Shown here: positions 11,211-38,369 of the stretch, piece after piece
How positions within the stretch are numbered: position 1 is the first letter of the stretch
How the letters are laid out: every line of letters starts with the position of its first letter
Source: a virus
Virus record (IMG/VR): IMGVR_UViG_3300046012_000442
Location: 1 to 40,958 of that record
Direction: 5' to 3' (one strand)
DNA length: 40,958 nucleotides
Made by a program: the position numbers and the translations under genes
The notes under the pieces: generated by a model
Database searches by the model: none
What the model was told of the DNA's origin: nothing
What the model saw: only the letters and a program-made list of their open reading frames with translations

Positions 11211-11948
11211 TCATTGCGGGAGTTTAAGGTTGTCGATTTGGCGGCTATCTGGAAGGATATCGTCATAGAGAAGCGGGATGTTGTTCTTGAATTCCTGAAG
11301 CAGTGGAATCATTACTTCCTTCATCTGGGGATGAGCTTCCTTAGTTGTCCTCATGATGAAGATATGACGCCAAGTGCGAAGGTTGTAGGTACAGATGATC
11401 TTACTTGCCAGGCCGTTGGGGAAGATCGACCTTGCCTCTTGTGGCCTCCAGCCTTTTGCCAGCAGCTTTTTGTAGCATTCTTCGGCTGAGTCAATCTGAT
11501 CCAGCCAGTCGCGATCATAGGTACATTTACTCTGTCCCATTAAACCATGGGTATGGAACCAACCGTCAGTGAATTTCTTTGGCTGTTGGTTGGCAATACA
11601 ATCTGGACACTTAACATCTGGTTTTGGGTAAAGAAAACTAGGCGGCATCTTCTTCGCATAATTCACGAAGCGCGTGCTTTCTTGTGTATAGGAGGCAATG
11701 CGGTGGCGAACAATCTCATGGGTAATGCCACGATCGGTGAGAATCTCTACAGGAACGATGGCATGTTCAGTGATGGACCAATCTCCATGGCCTAGTACTA
11801 CGGAACTGATGAATTTGGTCCAGGTTAGGGTGGTCATATCTTCCTCTGACCGATGGCTGATACGTCCGGCATACTCAATCAGGTTTAGGGAGTCCTGAAT
11901 TTGAGCTCTAGACATCAGTACTTTTGCGTATGGTTCCACTATCCGCAT
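11211..11948 (-). CDS. thyX: Flavin-dependent thymidylate synthase (245 aa)
   Basis: ThyX makes dTMP from dUMP using FAD, NADPH and methylenetetrahydrofolate. The signature RHRxxSxxxxSxR is present as RHRIASYTQESTRF at residues 81-94, and the N-terminal VRHR-side helix and C-terminal NLRTWRHIFIMRT (substrate Arg region) are where expected. A CPDC insertion near residue 113 and a HTHG segment are less usual and may bind metal. It overlaps the DUF3310 gene by 41 bases. It coexists with two ThyA-fold proteins on the other arm, which argues that those do something other than ordinary dTMP synthesis. Confidence 0.93.
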   Translation of the reverse strand: MRIVEPYAKVLMSRAQIQDSLNLIEYAGRISHRSEEDMTTLTWTKFISSVVLGHGDWSITEHAIVPVEILTDRGITHEIVRHRIASYTQESTRFVNYAKKMPPSFLYPKPDVKCPDCIANQQPKKFTDGWFHTHGLMGQSKCTYDRDWLDQIDSAEECYKKLLAKGWRPQEARSIFPNGLASKIICTYNLRTWRHIFIMRTTKEAHPQMKEVMIPLLQEFKNNIPLLYDDILPDSRQIDNLKLPQ

Positions 11949-30841: not shown

Positions 30842-32287
30842 ATCTCTTACCCGTATCTCAAAACGCCCAGGCCTGAGCAACTCAGGGCCATGAAAGATAT
30901 CTATCGCCACAAGCATGTGCTGATTGTCGGCGACATGGGCGTTGGTAAGACTAAGATTGTAGTTGACTTCATCGGCAATCTGGTATATCACAAAAAGACT
31001 TCTCGTGCTGTTGTAATTGCGCCAATCGAGGCAATAGACGTCTGGATCGCCGAGATTACAGAGAACTGCCCATTCTTGAGATACTCCCTTTATATGAAGG
31101 GATACAAACCAGACTGGAGTAGCGATGTTATCCTTATCAACTACGACTACATCTGCCCCCGTCGGAAAAAGAAAAAACCGACGGAACTGGCGATTAAGAG
31201 GGCATCCTCCAAGGGGAGATCACCTCGTAAGAAATACTTCATTGATAAGACAATACTTGAGAGTGTTATTAGGTGGTGCCCATCGATCGTAGCAATTGAT
31301 GAAGGCCATAAGATCAAGCGACCGACTGCCAGAAGGTCGAAGGCTATACATCAATTGGGACCTATTGCGGACTATACCATAGATCTTACTGGGACGCCAA
31401 CTGGCAATAAGAAAGTGATGGATTTGTGGAGTCAGTTTAGGTTTATCAAGAGGGATGTTCTTGATGAAGAATTTGATGATCATAAACACAGGTATGGCGT
31501 ATGGGGCGGTTTTGGTAACTTCCAGCTTCTGAAAACTCGCAATGTTAAGAAGTTGGCAAGCATCATCGCCCCATATGTAATTAGGATTAAGAAGACTGGA
31601 CTTCCTGAAAAGAATTTCATCCCATGGAAAGTTACTCTCCCTCCGGCAGCCAAGCAAGTCTACAACCAGATGGAGAAGGAGTTCGTTGCATATGTTGAGA
31701 ACCAGAATGTGATAGCTTCTATCGCCCTAACGAAGATGATGAAGCTTTCCCAAATTGCTGGCGGCCATATTAAAAATGAAAGAAAGGAAGATCTCTTTGT
31801 ACATAGGTCGAAGCTAGATGCCTTAAAAGGTTTACTTGAATCTATGCAGGAATCTGGAGTTGAGAGGGTAGTAATTTTCGCTCGGTTCCTGTGGGAGATT
31901 GCTGAGATTCAGAAAGTTCTTAAAGACCTGGAATGGAAGAATATCCACAGGGTTAAGGGTAGGGTGGTGGCCTCGGTACTTGAGAAGTTCAACCGTGAAG
32001 GCGGAGCAATGGTTTGCCAAACCCAGTCGGGTTCCGGTTCAAATAACTTCCAAGCAGCTAACTACATGATCTTCTATTCCACCGACTACTCACTGATAAA
32101 CTTCCAACAAGCGATCGACCGTATACATAGGTTAGGTCAAACGAAACCATGCTTCTATTATTTCCTGCAATCCAAAGGAACTGTAGATGTCAGAATATAC
32201 AATCTTCTACAGGAAAATAAGGATGCGGCTGAAGAAATCAAAACCCTAGTTGAGGAGATCAAGAATGATCATCATAGAAGGTCCTGA
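30842..32287 (+). CDS. SNF2-type DNA helicase/translocase, probable non-standard start (481 aa)
   Basis: Motif I is GDMGVGKTK, motif II AIDEGHKI, motif III LTGTPTGN, and the second RecA domain ends with the SNF2 motif VI segment FQQAIDRIHRLGQTKPCFYY. These translocases move along double-stranded DNA. The first ATG (30890) would cut off YLKTPRPEQLRAM, a Q-motif-like element that normally precedes motif I. Upstream the frame has no ATG, GTG or TTG, but an in-frame ATC at 30842 lies 7 nt after GGAG, so a rare AUC start is possible. If the standard start is used the gene is 30890-32287 (465 aa). Confidence 0.85.
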   Translation: MSYPYLKTPRPEQLRAMKDIYRHKHVLIVGDMGVGKTKIVVDFIGNLVYHKKTSRAVVIAPIEAIDVWIAEITENCPFLRYSLYMKGYKPDWSSDVILINYDYICPRRKKKKPTELAIKRASSKGRSPRKKYFIDKTILESVIRWCPSIVAIDEGHKIKRPTARRSKAIHQLGPIADYTIDLTGTPTGNKKVMDLWSQFRFIKRDVLDEEFDDHKHRYGVWGGFGNFQLLKTRNVKKLASIIAPYVIRIKKTGLPEKNFIPWKVTLPPAAKQVYNQMEKEFVAYVENQNVIASIALTKMMKLSQIAGGHIKNERKEDLFVHRSKLDALKGLLESMQESGVERVVIFARFLWEIAEIQKVLKDLEWKNIHRVKGRVVASVLEKFNREGGAMVCQTQSGSGSNNFQAANYMIFYSTDYSLINFQQAIDRIHRLGQTKPCFYYFLQSKGTVDVRIYNLLQENKDAAEEIKTLVEEIKNDHHRRS

Positions 32288-32765
32288 CGGAGCGGGTAAG
32301 TCAACACTCTGTGGGGCCCTAAAAAATTCCGGTATAGTTGATAAAGTCCTTCCGTCACCCCGCATTACTTCGAAGGGCGATCCTGACCGGATGAAGTATG
32401 AAACCCGTCGCTATCTCCACCTATACGGTCAGAACCATACCATTGCAGTTGACAGGTTCTTGTTCTCCGAGATGGTGTATGGCAAAGTTCTCAGAGGCAA
32501 ATCCTCCTTCTCCAGATTGGAATATCTCAATACTTTACTTGAGATTATGACCACCGGCAGCATAGTTATTTTCTGCCTCCCGGAGAAACTCAACTTCAAA
32601 AAAGATGAGAATCCACGGGTGATTGAAAGCATCGAGCAGCTGAGGAAAGAATACGAAGCATGCGTGGAAGACTCTGCATTCTCGACGTCCCGCACATACG
32701 TATACAAGTGGGACGAAAAAAGGTCTTTTGATAGGGTGGTAAAATTCATCAGGGAGAATCAATGA
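32265..32765 (+). CDS. Deoxynucleoside monophosphate kinase, P-loop (166 aa)
   Basis: MIIIEGPDGAGKSTLCGALK begins with a Walker A as in thymidylate kinases and phage dNMP kinases. VDRFLFSEMVYGKVLRGKSS resembles the DRxxxSexVYg segment of this group. GAGGAG lies upstream of ATG 32265. It would phosphorylate a dNMP, possibly a modified one made by the ThyA-like enzymes nearby. Confidence 0.8.
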   Translation: MIIIEGPDGAGKSTLCGALKNSGIVDKVLPSPRITSKGDPDRMKYETRRYLHLYGQNHTIAVDRFLFSEMVYGKVLRGKSSFSRLEYLNTLLEIMTTGSIVIFCLPEKLNFKKDENPRVIESIEQLRKEYEACVEDSAFSTSRTYVYKWDEKRSFDRVVKFIRENQ

Positions 32766-33259
32766 AAACACGTTCTTACGAACATTTGTCTGATTACCAA
32801 TGTCAGATGGAAGCCGGTGATATACTCGAAAAAGCTTTGCTGGCCTTCCATAACAAGTATGGGCACCTGGTGAATGAAAAACCAACAGGCAATGTCCATG
32901 AAGGAATTATCAACCTGCGCATTAGGTTGATTAACGAGGAAGTTAACGAGGAGCTTATAGTTGCTCTTAACCGACTCAAAAGAGCTACTCCAGAGACCGA
33001 AGATACTCTTCTGGAGGAAGTCCTGGACGGTGCAGTAGATTCCATCTATGTGATTCTCGGAACCCTATTAACTCTGGGACTTCCATTTGGTCATGCCTTT
33101 GCTGAAGTCCAGCGGAGCAATATGAGCAAGACCGCCCCTGATCCAAACCGTGTAGTTGACCCAACTCAGAAGTATCAGGTCAAAACGCCCAAAGGCCCTG
33201 ACTTCGAACCACCAAATCTATCGGCTGTAATCAGCCTCGCCAAAGGAGTAGAAGATTGA
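32762..33259 (+). CDS. MazG-like all-alpha NTP pyrophosphohydrolase (165 aa)
   Basis: The metal-binding signature is INEEVNEELIVAL (ExxE type, near residues 57-62) and VLDGAVDSIYVILGTLLTLG (DxxxD, near 90), followed by FAEVQRSNMSK. This is the fold of MazG and of T4-type dCTPases. It would hydrolyse an (d)NTP to the monophosphate; in a modification pathway it could remove the unmodified dNTP. ATGA overlap with the kinase gene. Confidence 0.8.
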   Translation: MKTRSYEHLSDYQCQMEAGDILEKALLAFHNKYGHLVNEKPTGNVHEGIINLRIRLINEEVNEELIVALNRLKRATPETEDTLLEEVLDGAVDSIYVILGTLLTLGLPFGHAFAEVQRSNMSKTAPDPNRVVDPTQKYQVKTPKGPDFEPPNLSAVISLAKGVED

Positions 33260-33633
33260 AAGTTTACCTCGCAGCCCGTTATTCCCGACGTGAAGAATTA
33301 GCTGCTCTAGTCCCTGATCTGGCAGAACATGGATTAGAGATAACCTCAAGCTGGCTCAACAGTACTGGAACTGGTAAGTTACCTGACAGGACCTTTGAAG
33401 AGAACCAGCAATGCGCAATCATGGATCTTGAGGATATAGATATGGCAGATACCGTTATCTTATTCTCAGAAGATCCAACTGTGCCAACCCTTCGTGGCGG
33501 AAGGCACTTTGAATCCGGGTATGCCCTAGGATGTGGGAAAGAGCTGATCATCATTGGTCCTCTCGAGAATGTTTTCCACTTTCACCCGAAAGTTAAGCAG
33601 TTTGCAACGATTGACGACTATCTTTTTGGATGA
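33256..33633 (+). CDS. Nucleoside 2-deoxyribosyltransferase-like protein (125 aa)
   Basis: TTG 33256 (MKVYLAARYSRREELAALVP) overlaps the MazG-like stop. MDLEDIDMADTVILFSEDPT and RGGRHFESGYALGCGKELII match the NDT-like fold, with Asp of DLEDI and Glu of HFESG at the usual active-site places. These enzymes cleave or exchange the N-glycosidic bond of deoxynucleosides or their monophosphates. Nucleotide salvage or destruction of host nucleotides is likely. Confidence 0.8.
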   Translation: MKVYLAARYSRREELAALVPDLAEHGLEITSSWLNSTGTGKLPDRTFEENQQCAIMDLEDIDMADTVILFSEDPTVPTLRGGRHFESGYALGCGKELIIIGPLENVFHFHPKVKQFATIDDYLFG

Positions 33634-33643
33634 GGAGAACCAA

Positions 33644-34459
33644 TTGATCGAGAGGAAGTTCCCAACACTGCTAACAGCCTATAGAGGCCTAACCGACGAA
33701 CTGGCCTACAACAAAGAACTCCCAATATTGAAATGGGGAGTTTGCATCGGGTACAAAGACCTAATTACTGTAAGGGTCGAAGATGCACTCGACAACGACA
33801 ACATGAACCTGGGTATGGCAAGCTATACCAAGTCCAGGTGGACCAGATTCCTACGGAGGTATCTACGCAGTGATTTTTCAAGTTGGATTGACGAAGCTAT
33901 GGCGAAACTACAGCGTTATCCCAGCCGTCCTTTCGTCGCTTCTTATTCTGTCAATCTTAATACAGGCCATAACTATGGTGGATGTTTGGCATCTCTACAG
34001 ATCCGAATCTGCCCGATTCCCGAAGTTATTCTTACCTCACGTGCTTGTCATGTTGATAAAGTTGGGTTTCTTGACCTGTCTCTTATTAACGTGGTAGCTA
34101 AGAAGATGGGAGTTCCCAAGGTAAAGGGCACCTGGGTTATCTCAAACTGCTTTATCTCTGGCATCAGCCAGGTGTATTACTTGAAGAGGTTTGATATGCC
34201 GCTTCAGGGTCACAGGCTCGAGAAAACGCTCAAGCGCCTCATTGATGTGGATTACGACGACATCAAGTTCGGACCACTGAAGAGGGGACGTAAGAGGATG
34301 ATGGCCCTCGACGAACATGGGTTTATTCCCAATAGCATTGACGTTGACAAACTCTCCATTGCACCGGGTAAATTCTTTGGAGAATTGCCAGCCACAACAA
34401 CTATGGACGTAGATCCAGAAGGCATTGAGGACTTCCTGGAAGAAATGGGATGTGACTAG
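33644..34459 (+). CDS. ThyA-fold protein 1, possible deoxycytidylate-modifying enzyme (271 aa)
   Basis: TTG 33644 has GAGGAG 6 nt upstream. The segment HNYGGCLASLQIRICPIPEV, followed by ILTSRACHVDKVGFLDLSLI, resembles the thymidylate-synthase core, with a candidate nucleophile Cys114 and an RSCD-like RACH (133-136). Eight residues after RACH stands Asp144, where ThyA has Asn177. In known enzymes Asn-to-Asp at this place goes with dCMP rather than dUMP. The final Asp of RSCD is His here. This is a by-eye alignment; a structural role or a partner of the next gene is also possible. Confidence 0.55.
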   Translation: MIERKFPTLLTAYRGLTDELAYNKELPILKWGVCIGYKDLITVRVEDALDNDNMNLGMASYTKSRWTRFLRRYLRSDFSSWIDEAMAKLQRYPSRPFVASYSVNLNTGHNYGGCLASLQIRICPIPEVILTSRACHVDKVGFLDLSLINVVAKKMGVPKVKGTWVISNCFISGISQVYYLKRFDMPLQGHRLEKTLKRLIDVDYDDIKFGPLKRGRKRMMALDEHGFIPNSIDVDKLSIAPGKFFGELPATTTMDVDPEGIEDFLEEMGCD

Positions 34460-35218
34460 GTGGGAGTCTATTCGAGATTCGACACACCAATTGCTTTGGC
34501 AGCTGAGAGACTGAAAACGGCCCGTGTAGTAAGGGCCGGTTTCTGGCAAGGCATAGATTCATCCAAGCGTCCTGAACTAGCCACACATGAGTTATTGAAC
34601 TTCAGTCTCAGCGTACTGAACTCGCACATCTCCAAAGAAGAACTGGCTGCTCAGATTAAACCCGACCTACCATGGGCTGACGATCATTTTGCTGAAAGGG
34701 TTAGCAGAATCCCGTTTAATCCTCCTCCAAGTGAGGAATGGTGGCCACACGCACCAAAAGGTAACGAGGAATTCAAGAAGCACGGCATCTTCAGCCATAC
34801 CTATCCTGAGAGATATTGGCCTCCATCCACATTCGGTATTCGGTTTAGGTATGGTAATCTTGATGACCTGATCCAGATGCTCAAAGTTGACCCGTTCACT
34901 CGGCAAGCATACTTGCCAGTGTGGTATCCGGAAGACTTGGGCGCCCCTATGGACGAGCGTAAACCATGCACACTTGGGTATCAATTCATAATGAGGGATG
35001 ATCAGTTCCACATTGTGTATTATATACGCAGCTGTGATTTTGTGCGTCACTTCAGGAATGACATCTACCTGACAGTGCGTCTTCAACAGTGGGTACTTCA
35101 AGAACTACAAAGGCTAGACGCCAGGTGGGCTAGAGTGGTACCCGGTAGCTTTACCATGCACATAACAAGCCTACATCTTTTTGTGAATGACTATCGAAAG
35201 ATATTCCCGAAGGAGTAA
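34460..35218 (+). CDS. ThyA-fold protein 2, possible dCMP hydroxymethylase or methylase (252 aa)
   Basis: The C-terminal half has the thymidylate-synthase core: KPCTLGYQF (nucleophile Cys170), YYIRSCDFVRHFRND (RSCD 190-193), and FTMHITSLHLFVND (His/Tyr loop). Eight residues after RSCD stands Asp201, the position of ThyA Asn177, which in phage dCMP hydroxymethylases is Asp. GTG 34460 follows the upstream stop directly. With thyX elsewhere in the window, ordinary dTMP synthesis is already covered. Confidence 0.65.
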   Translation: MGVYSRFDTPIALAAERLKTARVVRAGFWQGIDSSKRPELATHELLNFSLSVLNSHISKEELAAQIKPDLPWADDHFAERVSRIPFNPPPSEEWWPHAPKGNEEFKKHGIFSHTYPERYWPPSTFGIRFRYGNLDDLIQMLKVDPFTRQAYLPVWYPEDLGAPMDERKPCTLGYQFIMRDDQFHIVYYIRSCDFVRHFRNDIYLTVRLQQWVLQELQRLDARWARVVPGSFTMHITSLHLFVNDYRKIFPKE

Positions 35219-35219
35219 A

Positions 35220-35477
35220 ATGGACGCACTTGAGGAAGCAATTCAATCAGTTGATCGTGAAGTCCGCAGTGCAATGAAACTTCACCCACCCATGAATTCT
35301 CATCATGAGGCCTATGCAGTTATCAAAGAAGAGTTTGAGGAATATTGGGAAGAAGTTAAAGTGAATCCCAATAAGCTTAAACTCGGTGAACAACTCGCAC
35401 GAATTGAACACATGAGGAAAGAGTTAATCCAAGTAGCCGCAATGGCCATAAGAACCATTGCAGATTTGGGGCTTTAA
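35220..35477 (+). CDS. Small MazG-like protein (85 aa)
   Basis: ATG 35220 has AGGAG upstream. YAVIKEEFEEYWEEVK (ExxE type) and MRKELIQVAAMAIRTIADLG are typical of compact phage MazG-like proteins. It is the second member of this superfamily in the block. A (d)NTP pyrophosphohydrolase activity is likely, substrate unknown. Confidence 0.78.
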   Translation: MDALEEAIQSVDREVRSAMKLHPPMNSHHEAYAVIKEEFEEYWEEVKVNPNKLKLGEQLARIEHMRKELIQVAAMAIRTIADLGL

Positions 35478-36022
35478 TGCCGAGAATCAGCAAACACGAA
35501 CTCATGCTGTCTATTTCAAAGCTCTTAGGACAGAGAGGCACTTGTCCTAGAGCTCGTGTAGGATGCGTCATTGAGCTTGAAGGGCGCATCTTGTCCACAG
35601 GGTATAACGGCTCTCTGTCGGGAAGTCCACACTGTGACGAGGAAGGCTGCCTTATGAAAGATGGGCACTGCCTTAGGACTATTCATGCAGAAGCCAATGC
35701 GATTTGCTTTGCAGCTAAGCATGGAATTAGTCTGAAAGGTGCAACTCTCTATGTCACTGGGTATGCCGGTGGTTGCTGCCATGCATGTGAGAAACTAGCT
35801 CTATCGGCCGGTATTGCTCGGATCATCAGTGAGCCGTATTATACCTGTATGAGCTGTAATGCCAAGGTTCTTTGTACCGATCGCCCAAAAATCTCGGGTG
35901 GTAAATTCATTAACGGGGGTTCTTACGACTTCGGTCGCGGAACTGGTATCGCACCGGACGTCTGTAAGAATTGTTGGTCTGAAGGTAAGAGGGTGTTAAA
36001 TCATATGTCTGGGGTAAAATGA
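35477..36022 (+). CDS. Deoxycytidylate deaminase-like protein with Cys-rich extension (181 aa)
   Basis: HAEANA (residues 70-75) and CCHAC (100-104) are the zinc and catalytic motifs of the dCMP deaminase family, which makes dUMP. PRARVGCVI and TGYNGSLSGSPHC are the substrate-side segments. The C-terminal 60 residues add further Cys pairs (CMSC, CKNCW) not needed for the deaminase, perhaps a second zinc site. TAATG overlap upstream. Confidence 0.88.
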   Translation: MPRISKHELMLSISKLLGQRGTCPRARVGCVIELEGRILSTGYNGSLSGSPHCDEEGCLMKDGHCLRTIHAEANAICFAAKHGISLKGATLYVTGYAGGCCHACEKLALSAGIARIISEPYYTCMSCNAKVLCTDRPKISGGKFINGGSYDFGRGTGIAPDVCKNCWSEGKRVLNHMSGVK

Positions 36023-36561
36023 TGCTTTACACTGATGTGATGGTAGATATTGAGACCTTAGGAACTACGCCGGGATGTTCCATAATCTCCATTGGGGCTA
36101 TAGGCTTCAACATATTACTCGAACAGGATGAATGGATGAGGTTCTATTCTGGGCCAATCAGTCGTGAATCCAACAGACGCTGTGGTCTCAAAGAAGATAG
36201 GGACACGGTGGAGTGGTGGCAGACTCAGTCACAGGAAGCAAGAGTAGTTTTTGAAGAAGCTTCTCGACCTTGTCGAGGGATTGATGATGCTTTGGCGGCT
36301 TTCAAGAAATTCTTCCCGGAGAATGGCAAGATCTGGGGGAATGGTGCAGATTTTGACAACCCTGTTCTGTCTGTGGCTTATAAAGCAGTAGGAATCAAGC
36401 AGCCATGGAATCACTGGAATAGCCGGTGCTATCGGACCATGAAGAACATTTTCAAGAAGGTCGAAGCACCAGAATTTATCGGTACCAGACATAATGCTTT
36501 GGACGATGCATTTCATCAGACAAGGCATCTTGTAAAGATCCTGGAAGAGGCATACAGATGA
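36019..36561 (+). CDS. DnaQ-like 3'-5' exonuclease (180 aa)
   Basis: The DEDD motifs are visible: MVDIETLGTTPGCSIISIGA (ExoI), GNGADFDNPVL (ExoII) and ARHNALDDA-type TRHNALDDAFHQ (ExoIII). The sequence and size resemble the Rv2179c/ExoX-like exonucleases of phages. It sits directly before the DNA polymerase and may supply proofreading. ATGA overlaps on both sides. Confidence 0.85.
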   Translation: MMLYTDVMVDIETLGTTPGCSIISIGAIGFNILLEQDEWMRFYSGPISRESNRRCGLKEDRDTVEWWQTQSQEARVVFEEASRPCRGIDDALAAFKKFFPENGKIWGNGADFDNPVLSVAYKAVGIKQPWNHWNSRCYRTMKNIFKKVEAPEFIGTRHNALDDAFHQTRHLVKILEEAYR

Positions 36562-38369
36562 GCAAACTCTACTCCATGTTCCCTCCTGAGGGGACCTTTG
36601 ACGAATCACTTCCAGTAGAAGTAGATATTGAGACCAACGGGCTTGATCCTTTCAGGCCTGATGCGAAGATCCATTGCATGGCTCTGTCTCAAGATCCAAA
36701 TACGATCTACTGGGTTAGAATCCGTAAAGGTCAATTTGACCTGTATGAGAAATTCTTCCAGAAGTACAGGATAATCTGCAGGCGCGGAACATTCGAGGGA
36801 ACATGGATACTGAGGATCTTCGGAGTTCAACCGAAGCTCTATTTTGACACCAAAGTTGGTGCATACCTCATCGACGAGAATGATGAAAATGGTCTTAAAG
36901 ACGAGGCTGTGGCATACCTCAACATCCCGTACTGGGATGATGTAGATGAGTTTAGGGTTGTCACTGACTGGGAAAAGATGAAGAAATACAACTCTCGGGA
37001 TGTCCTGTATGACCTACGACTTTATCGAGAGCGTCACCTCCCATTTCTCAAGACACATCCGAAGGTTGCCAGAGTTGCTAAGTACATCCTCATTCCAGCT
37101 GTTGAGACATTCACCAAGGTTATCTATGATGGCTTCCATATTGATATGGAGAAAGCTATCGAAAGAATTGACATCTGCAATGATAAGATCAAGGAATTCA
37201 ATTTACAGATTGACTCATTCGCTGATGGTAGGCATATCAATCCGGGATCTCCAAAGCAGATGAACTGGCTGCTTTATGAGCATATCGGACTTCGATGCCC
37301 GGTCAAGACCAAGAAAGGCAGTAACAGTTCTGCTGAGGCAGCCCTAATTCGGCTGATGGGACAACACGCCGTAATTGACGCAATCCTGGAATGGAGAAAG
37401 TGGAAGAAATACCTGTCAACCTACCTAATTCCATGGACGAGGAAAGGTCCGGTGTTACATGCAAACTACGGGTTTACAGCGACGGATACGGGCCGTCTCA
37501 ACTCCACGATGGTACGCAATAACCGAAGAGAAAAGAACCTTGGCGCTACACTTCACCAGTGCCCTCGTGATCATTTTATCCGTAACCTCATTACCGCTCG
37601 CAATCCCGATTGGTGCATCGTTGCTGCCGATCTTTCTCAAGTTGAGCTACGCCTTGTGGCTCACGTTGCCCAAGAACCGACGATGATGCGAGTATTTAAC
37701 TCTGGTGAGGACATCCACACGTCCACAGCCATGACTCTGACTCATGGCGAAATCGACAAGGAGACTAGGAAGAAGGCCAAGGCTGTAAACTTCGGATTTG
37801 TCTACGGCATGTGGGCTAAGAAGTTCGTAGCATATGCTAAAGAAAAGTTTGGCTTAGACCTCACGAAGCATGAAGGAGAGTTATACCGTGAAGCATTTTT
37901 TGATAAATACGCTGGCCTGGTTCTCTGGCATAATCGTGTTGAACACTTCGTTGCGCAAAACGGTTATATTGATTCCGTTTTTGGTCGCCGCCGCCACCTT
38001 CCTGGTGCTAAGTATGGTTCTGGACTTGAGGAGTGGCTCCGAAAAGAAGCCATCCGTCAGGGAGTTAACTCACCGATTCAATCGGCTGGCTCTGATCTTA
38101 ACCTTTTTATCAATAATCTTATTAGTTCTTATCAGCTTAAGTGGGACTTTAAAATAGACCCAACGAAGGCGATGCTGGTAGGTTCTGCTCATGACTCGCA
38201 GATCTTTGAGGTGCGTAGAGATTATGTACCACAGTTAAGGGCTGGGATCAAGTATACCCTCGAGAATCTGCCGACTGAGAAGTATTTCAACTTCAGTTTT
38301 AGGATTCCAATTCTCATGGATGTTACTGCTTATGAAGATTGCTGGGAAGGAAAGGAAATCGAATGTTAG
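36558..38369 (+). CDS. Family A DNA polymerase (603 aa)
   Basis: Polymerase motif A is AADLSQVELRLV (near residue 353), motif B RKKAKAVNFGFVYG (near 403), and motif C SAHDSQIFEV (near 544). The N-terminal 3'-5' exonuclease domain has ExoI DIETNGLDP, but the ExoII region is GTFEGTW where N-x-x-F-D is usual, and motif C has HDS instead of HDE. The exonuclease may be weak, which would give the DnaQ-like gene a purpose. No 5' nuclease domain. This is the likely replicative polymerase. Confidence 0.92.
   Translation: MSKLYSMFPPEGTFDESLPVEVDIETNGLDPFRPDAKIHCMALSQDPNTIYWVRIRKGQFDLYEKFFQKYRIICRRGTFEGTWILRIFGVQPKLYFDTKVGAYLIDENDENGLKDEAVAYLNIPYWDDVDEFRVVTDWEKMKKYNSRDVLYDLRLYRERHLPFLKTHPKVARVAKYILIPAVETFTKVIYDGFHIDMEKAIERIDICNDKIKEFNLQIDSFADGRHINPGSPKQMNWLLYEHIGLRCPVKTKKGSNSSAEAALIRLMGQHAVIDAILEWRKWKKYLSTYLIPWTRKGPVLHANYGFTATDTGRLNSTMVRNNRREKNLGATLHQCPRDHFIRNLITARNPDWCIVAADLSQVELRLVAHVAQEPTMMRVFNSGEDIHTSTAMTLTHGEIDKETRKKAKAVNFGFVYGMWAKKFVAYAKEKFGLDLTKHEGELYREAFFDKYAGLVLWHNRVEHFVAQNGYIDSVFGRRRHLPGAKYGSGLEEWLRKEAIRQGVNSPIQSAGSDLNLFINNLISSYQLKWDFKIDPTKAMLVGSAHDSQIFEVRRDYVPQLRAGIKYTLENLPTEKYFNFSFRIPILMDVTAYEDCWEGKEIEC

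Follow-up and report, generated by a model that had tools for sequence, protein, structure and literature searches.

The virus record analysed here (IMGVR_UViG_3300046012_000442, a stretch of 40,958 nucleotides, hereafter the window) is likely to encode a pathway in which two ThyA-fold proteins, TSB and TSA, modify cytosine at C5 while it is still a free nucleotide. An earlier note on this DNA had suggested a T4-type modified-pyrimidine pathway. The clustered enzyme classes (PF01503, PHROG 761, PF00383) and the ThyA fold bear this out, but the signature residues of the T4 hydroxymethylase are missing. The proposal can be narrowed to cytosine: at the position of ThyA Asn177, the residue that reads dUMP, TSB and TSA alike have Asp. 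All genes between 32265 and 36022 are found on the same strand, overlapping or abutting, and form a single tight operon. The genes relevant to the pathway are as follows:

32265..32765, + strand: dNMP/thymidylate-kinase-like P-loop protein (PHROG 761, E = 4e-12; PF02223, E = 4e-5, below cut-off)
32762..33259, + strand: PRA-PH/MazG-type nucleotide pyrophosphohydrolase (PF01503, E = 1e-7, above cut-off; PHROG 671, E = 1.3e-21)
33256..33633, + strand: nucleoside-deoxyribosyltransferase-like protein, a weak call (PF05014, E = 1.7e-4, 22.2 bits against a cut-off of 28.8)
33644..34459, + strand: TSA, second ThyA-fold protein, unannotated, TTG start (AlphaFold2 and fold search, residue conservation, linkage to TSB)
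34460..35218, + strand: TSB, ThyA-family protein of putative cytosine-reading type, Cys170 and Asp201 (PF00303, E = 1.8e-8)
35220..35477, + strand: small protein of unknown function (PHROGs 25385 and 2831, both of unknown function)
35477..36022, + strand: dCMP deaminase (PF00383, E = 1.4e-16; PHROG 174, E = 2e-34)
36558..38369, + strand: family A DNA polymerase, PolA (PF00476, E = 1.3e-63)
11211..11948, - strand: ThyX (PF02511, E = 7e-38)

The kinase, the dCMP deaminase, the ThyX on the other arm and the two ThyA-fold proteins named in the earlier note were all recovered, TSB by its Pfam match and TSA by its predicted structure. Two MazG-like pyrophosphohydrolases had been proposed; the first was retained, but the protein at 35220-35477 has no MazG/PRA-PH family match in Pfam or NCBIfam. 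The deoxyribosyltransferase-like protein does match PF05014, but only below the cut-off. It is possibly a dNMP N-hydrolase, for which DmtZ of 2-aminoadenine phages provides a precedent (PMC12884076). No match to it was found in other loci containing the TSA/TSB pair, and as it is confined to the window and a near-identical sibling contig it lies outside the conserved core.

TSA and TSB form a conserved module in their own right. When records were scanned with TSA alone, TSB adjoined TSA in 40/41 loci, the lone exception being cut by a contig end, and the two genes overlap by 4 bases in half of the loci. The pair occurs in phages of Gordonia, Streptomyces, Curtobacterium, Brevundimonas and Pseudomonas, where public records list it as 'thymidylate synthase' and 'hypothetical protein'. 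The kinase/MazG and dCMP deaminase genes are also conserved around it, as is PolA, which lies beside it in 52 of 55 loci. Moreover, the order kinase/MazG, TSA, TSB, dCMP deaminase, PolA is seen again in unrelated phages, a recurrence that is more than chance. Judged by gene content, TSA appears to depend on TSB and not vice versa: a whole TSB clade is without TSA, and a search for TSA elsewhere in the contigs lacking it returned 0/25, with both positive controls recovered. ThyX was found in 15/35 records with TSA and 0/15 without. No experiment on any member was found, and PADLOC returned nothing for TSA or TSB. The earlier note had listed the two ThyA-fold genes and overlooked the pair as a conserved module.

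In TSB, Asp at the ThyA N177 position and a catalytic-type Cys are present in 96/96 loci examined, and the residue following the Cys is Thr or Ser. The substitution N177D makes ThyA act on dCMP in place of dUMP, and in the MetaGPA study ThyA proteins of the Asp177 type were associated with contigs carrying modified cytosine, where they co-occur with PRA-PH and dCMP deaminase as here (PMC8670742). That study defined the ThyA domain by Pfam, which does not detect TSA. Public records label TSB 'thymidylate synthase'. However, it has no Asn177 and no full site-closing C-terminal part, as only 84 residues follow the Cys, compared with 120 in ThyA. The predicted structure of TSB (pLDDT 85.8) matches T4 dCMP hydroxymethylase and ThyA structures, and the MilA, T4 and thymidylate synthase models match it about as well as AfhB does. 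The nearest PDB sequences are the phage dCMP hydroxylase AfhB (top) and an N229D ThyA-dCMP complex. The named enzyme nearest the TSB profile by score is SPO1 gp29 dUMP hydroxymethylase (39.0 bits), which differs in its substrate, in having Asn where TSB has Asp, and in having Asp three residues before the Cys. Glu44 of TSB was considered as the counterpart of ThyA Glu58 and rejected, as residues 42-52 form a strand in the model whereas the ThyA residue is helical; the alignment of TSB with ThyA is unreliable in its N-terminal part, and no TSB residue is assigned to Glu58, Trp80 or Trp83 of ThyA.

The proposed signature of dCMP hydroxymethylases is Asp or Glu three residues before the Cys and Ser or Thr two before the active-site Tyr (PMC6400193). 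At these positions the T4 enzyme has Asp and Ser, whereas TSB has Arg (96/96 loci) and an invariant His113. TSB thus lacks the signature, which counts against the modification pathway proposed here and leaves a T4-type hydroxymethylase activity of TSB a prediction.

TSA has no Pfam match, and a sequence search of the PDB returned no related match. Its AlphaFold2 model (pLDDT 83.6, pTM 0.83) adopts the ThyA fold, with best matches to 9iqu (AfhB, Z 15.0), MilA (Z 14.4) and thymidylate synthases (Z ~11), and a Foldseek E value of 6e-7; on the strength of the model, TSA is assigned to the ThyA superfamily by fold. The active-site Cys, Arg and Asp are kept in 49/49 relatives despite identity down to ~10%, and the residue matching ThyA N177 is Asp in all 49. 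The conserved residues are Tyr73, Cys114, Arg133 and Asp144, of which Tyr73 may be equivalent to ThyA Tyr94 (its median distance to the Cys is 50 residues, compared with 51). The part of TSA before the Cys is short, at 113 residues against 146-174, and holds no recognised folate motif.

From the folds, residues, linkage and distribution described above we infer the substrates, products and order of steps of a pathway. The MazG-type enzyme, whose substrate is putatively dCTP, would yield dCMP. TSB and TSA, each with a catalytic-type Cys and a cytosine-reading Asp, would convert dCMP to a C5-substituted dCMP, which the kinase would phosphorylate and the family A polymerase of the phage would build into DNA. 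The first attack on dCMP is probably made by TSB, with 5-hydroxymethyl-dCMP as its likeliest product, and TSA would act only together with TSB, either as a partner subunit or on the product of TSB. The dCMP deaminase and ThyX would form a separate dTTP supply; ThyX is encoded elsewhere in the window, so dTMP has a separate source.

The same set of functions makes up the T4 dCMP hydroxymethylase pathway (gp42, dCTPase, dNMP kinase and dCMP deaminase), with the classes here assigned by family match only, and gp42 shares the ThyA fold, the catalytic Cys and the Asp at the N177 position. The window differs in belonging to a PolA-type phage with ThyX, in encoding two ThyA-fold proteins, and in that no glucosyltransferase was found. 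The absence of a visible glucosyltransferase, as the earlier note had it, agrees with most of the relatives tested, since families 1 or 2 (GT1/GT2) occur in only 5/36 records with TSA. However, the window looks like a fragment, and in a seemingly incomplete record a missing glycosyltransferase proves little. A carbamoyltransferase, the tailoring enzyme for which MetaGPA gives a precedent, was rejected (0/50 records). None of the three families tested (GT1, GT2, carbamoyltransferase) was found in the window, a point against the proposed pathway.

How TSA and TSB divide the work can be read in several ways. Tentatively, the two may form one hetero-oligomeric dCMP hydroxymethylase, with TSA completing or regulating TSB and 5-hydroxymethyl-dCMP as the sole product. 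The near-strict linkage and the 4-base overlap favour such a complex, as does the fact that ThyA enzymes are dimers with shared active sites; in T4 dCMP hydroxymethylase, Arg123 and Arg124 are supplied by the other protomer (PMC6400193). However, the clade without TSA implies that TSB can work alone, most TSA proteins seem by alignment to have no Arg to lend to the TSB site, and an invariant Cys would be superfluous in a partner with a purely structural role. It is possible, if somewhat unlikely, that TSA is instead a second-step enzyme whose Cys adds to the ring of the TSB product and directs a folate-free exchange or addition at C5, giving a hypermodified dCMP. Consistent with this, TSA needs TSB and not the reverse, its Cys, Arg and Asp are invariant while its short pre-Cys part shows no folate motif, and glycosyl- and carbamoyltransferases that act on DNA are missing from most records. 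Against it, TSA may yet bind folate, and its activity is a prediction. More doubtful is the broader proposal that TSA is the first of the folate-independent ThyA-fold cytidylate enzymes, its Cys adduct adding or exchanging the C5 group on the TSB product such that hypermodified cytosine is completed at the nucleotide stage and no DNA-level transferase is needed. MilA, a CMP hydroxymethylase of the same fold and a strong structural match to both models, differs in serving an antibiotic pathway, in its ribonucleotide substrate and in being a single protein.

It is distinctly unlikely that TSB, TSA or both are flavin-dependent dCMP hydroxylases making 5-hydroxy-dCMP, as AfhB does. The RB69 group makes 5-hydroxycytosine via a ThyA-superfamily enzyme (PMC13390438), and AfhB (9iqu, 9iqc), the 5-hydroxy-dCMP synthase of RB69-like phages, ranks first among the structures matching TSA and among the PDB sequences matching TSB, and it shares the ThyA fold, the Asp at the N177 position and Thr after the Cys. 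The kinase gene near the RB69 enzyme also belongs to PHROG 761. However, AfhB is very remote from either protein, other models match TSB about as well, and three residues before the Cys AfhB has Glu where TSB has Arg. The RB69-like locus differs in that a single ThyA-fold protein is encoded next to a PHROG 3891 protein, with arabinose genes nearby; the PHROG 3891 protein was considered as a relative of TSA and rejected, there being no profile similarity.

An ordinary dTTP-supply operon, with unmodified DNA, a divergent thymidylate synthase in TSB and a decayed paralogue of it in TSA, has room because the substrates of the pyrophosphohydrolase and kinase are predictions, and it fits the public annotation of TSB and neighbours that are all known from plain phage nucleotide-metabolism operons, but it is very unlikely given that no TSB has anything but Asp at position 177, and given the short TSB C-terminus, the ThyX already present and the invariant active-site residues of TSA.

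The ThyA-fold pair is more than a T4 look-alike. In sequenced phages that infect Gordonia and several further hosts, TSB-family genes labelled 'thymidylate synthase' look cytosine-specific. If the pair makes modified cytosine, the DNA of these cultured phages is altered, with consequences for restriction, CRISPR and sequencing, and TSA would represent a whole ThyA-fold family whose chemistry could be explored in laboratory phages. The idea that TSA is a fast-diverging specificity factor was rejected, since its evolution between close relatives resembles that of TSB, the deaminase and PolA.

The main new point is a protein family, TSA, and its near-strict pairing with the ThyA-family protein TSB; no earlier description of the family or the pairing was found in the part of the literature covered. 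Both genes lie in a block (32265-36022) whose genes share one strand and overlap or abut; the same run extends to genes for an exonuclease and a DNA polymerase of family A. The relevant features are as follows:

32265-32765, + strand: thymidylate-kinase-like protein (PHROG 761, E 4e-12)
32762-33259, + strand: PRA-PH/MazG-type pyrophosphohydrolase (PF01503, E 1e-7)
33256-33633, + strand: deoxyribosyltransferase-like protein (below Pfam cut-off)
33644-34459, + strand: TSA (no Pfam match; matched only by a PHROG of unknown function)
34460-35218, + strand: TSB, ThyA-family (PF00303, E 1.8e-8)
35220-35477, + strand: proposed second MazG (no match to a MazG-type family)
35477-36022, + strand: dCMP deaminase (PF00383, E 1.4e-16)
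11211-11948, - strand: ThyX (PF02511, E 7e-38)

The earlier note had named these proteins from the sequence. Family searches recovered the kinase, the deaminase and the separately located ThyX, and structural modelling added the second ThyA-fold protein. Only one of the two MazG-like proteins was borne out, the protein at 35220-35477 matching no family of that kind, and the Pfam match of the deoxyribosyltransferase-like protein, which falls outside the conserved core of the pair loci, is sub-threshold. At another locus (L013, 3742-4692) one reading frame matches both the kinase-like and MazG-like parts, an apparent fusion that supports a functional link between them.

An AlphaFold2 model of TSA (22 relatives as input; pLDDT 83.6, pTM 0.83) predicts a ThyA fold. 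Its top PDB matches were 9iqu (Z 15.0) and 9iqc (Z 14.7), both the phage dCMP hydroxylase AfhB, followed by the CMP hydroxymethylase MilA (Z 14.4) and thymidylate synthases (Z ~11); T4 dCMP hydroxymethylase was also among the Foldseek matches. In a profile comparison (E 0.03 only), Cys114, Arg133 and Asp144 of TSA align with Cys170, Arg190 and Asp201 of TSB. All 49 non-redundant TSA sequences carry these three residues and Tyr73, with identity to the window protein down to ~10%; such retention is more in line with a part in catalysis or nucleotide binding than with a purely structural role.

A TSA-profile scan found 41 TSA loci, some near-identical. TSB lay on the same strand in 40, the genes overlapping by 4 bases in half of the loci; the sole exception (L117) stops ~250 bases past TSA. 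TSBs without TSA often come from very large contigs, and a search of 25 such contigs detected no TSA at any position. Because they form a single clade (100/99) nested among TSA-bearing TSBs, the tree favours an old pair with one loss, though this calls for caution because its outgroups are long branches. Around 55 TSA-bearing loci the neighbours include PolA (52), Cas4-like nuclease (49), dCMP deaminase (48), kinase/MazG (45) and RecA-like ATPase (42); except for two dCMP deaminases, these were missing around 39 TSBs without TSA. ThyX occurs in 15/35 records with TSA versus 0/15 without. Named hosts of phages with the pair include Gordonia, Curtobacterium, Streptomyces, Brevundimonas and Pseudomonas. 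TSA accompanied TSB at 6/8 loci in metagenome-assembled genomes. Two TSB contigs (L152, L157), binned to Lokiarchaeota and Pacearchaeota, are most likely misbinned virus contigs.

Aligned with E. coli ThyA, TSB has Asp at position 177 and retains the catalytic Cys, followed by Thr or Ser, in 96/96 loci. Asp at 177 causes ThyA enzymes to use dCMP, and the MetaGPA study placed such proteins on environmental contigs whose cytosine is modified, with ThyA domains co-occurring there with PRA-PH and dCMP deaminase domains (PMC8670742). The closest PDB entries by sequence profile were AfhB and the L. casei N229D-dCMP complex. Where the proposed T4 hydroxymethylase signature has Asp/Glu at Cys -3 and Ser/Thr at Tyr -2 (PMC6400193), TSB has invariant Arg167 and His113, and its tail after the Cys is 84 residues against 120 in ThyA. 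Thus a cytosine-type substrate class is well supported for TSB, whereas its product is not. The T4-type modified-pyrimidine pathway proposed in the earlier note is partly upheld and narrowed to cytosine.

TSA has a short segment ahead of the Cys (median 113 residues versus 146-174 in other compared ThyA-fold enzymes), with no recognised folate motif, and it depends on TSB while TSB does not depend on TSA; a role as second-step enzyme or partner subunit would fit. In the putative pathway, the MazG-type enzyme would yield dCMP, TSB and TSA would turn this into a dCMP substituted at C5, the triphosphate would be formed by the kinase together with host enzymes, and PolA would insert the modified nucleotide into DNA. 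The dCMP deaminase and ThyX would supply dTTP, and the deoxyribosyltransferase-like protein could clear an unwanted dNMP, much as DmtZ removes dAMP in 2-aminoadenine phages (PMC12884076). The transferase search covered carbamoyltransferase (0/50 records) and glycosyltransferase families 1 and 2 (5/36 TSA-bearing records; among seven published phage genomes, KimJongPhill only).

A ~300-aa protein of unknown function (PHROG 3891) adjoins the ThyA-fold gene of RB69-group phages (L143, 5348-6247; L140, 4598-5498) and is annotated as two adjacent ORFs in the RB69 record. Pseudomonas phage PaMx28 (L142, 2731-3627) encodes a distinct member of the ThyA family that carries Asp at the position of N177 and may represent another cytosine-modifying lineage; DNA of this phage group resists restriction enzymes (PMC6469090).

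The window is listed as a virus record 40958 bases long. The ORFs searched included recognisable terminase and replication genes but no recognisable tail genes, which makes it probable that the genome is incomplete and the record a fragment. Ten of its open frames share a C-terminal peptide resembling RRIKS, though most of them are not otherwise related:

minus strand, ORF ends 4892, 7335, 9829, 13014, 13300: RRIKS-like C-termini
+ strand, ORF ends 18295, 18474, 18815, 25877, 26767: RRIKS-like C-termini

Codons vary among the frames, and therefore this is a peptide motif rather than a DNA repeat. Its frequency looks far above chance, and the peptide could serve as a tag for capsid targeting or for processing.
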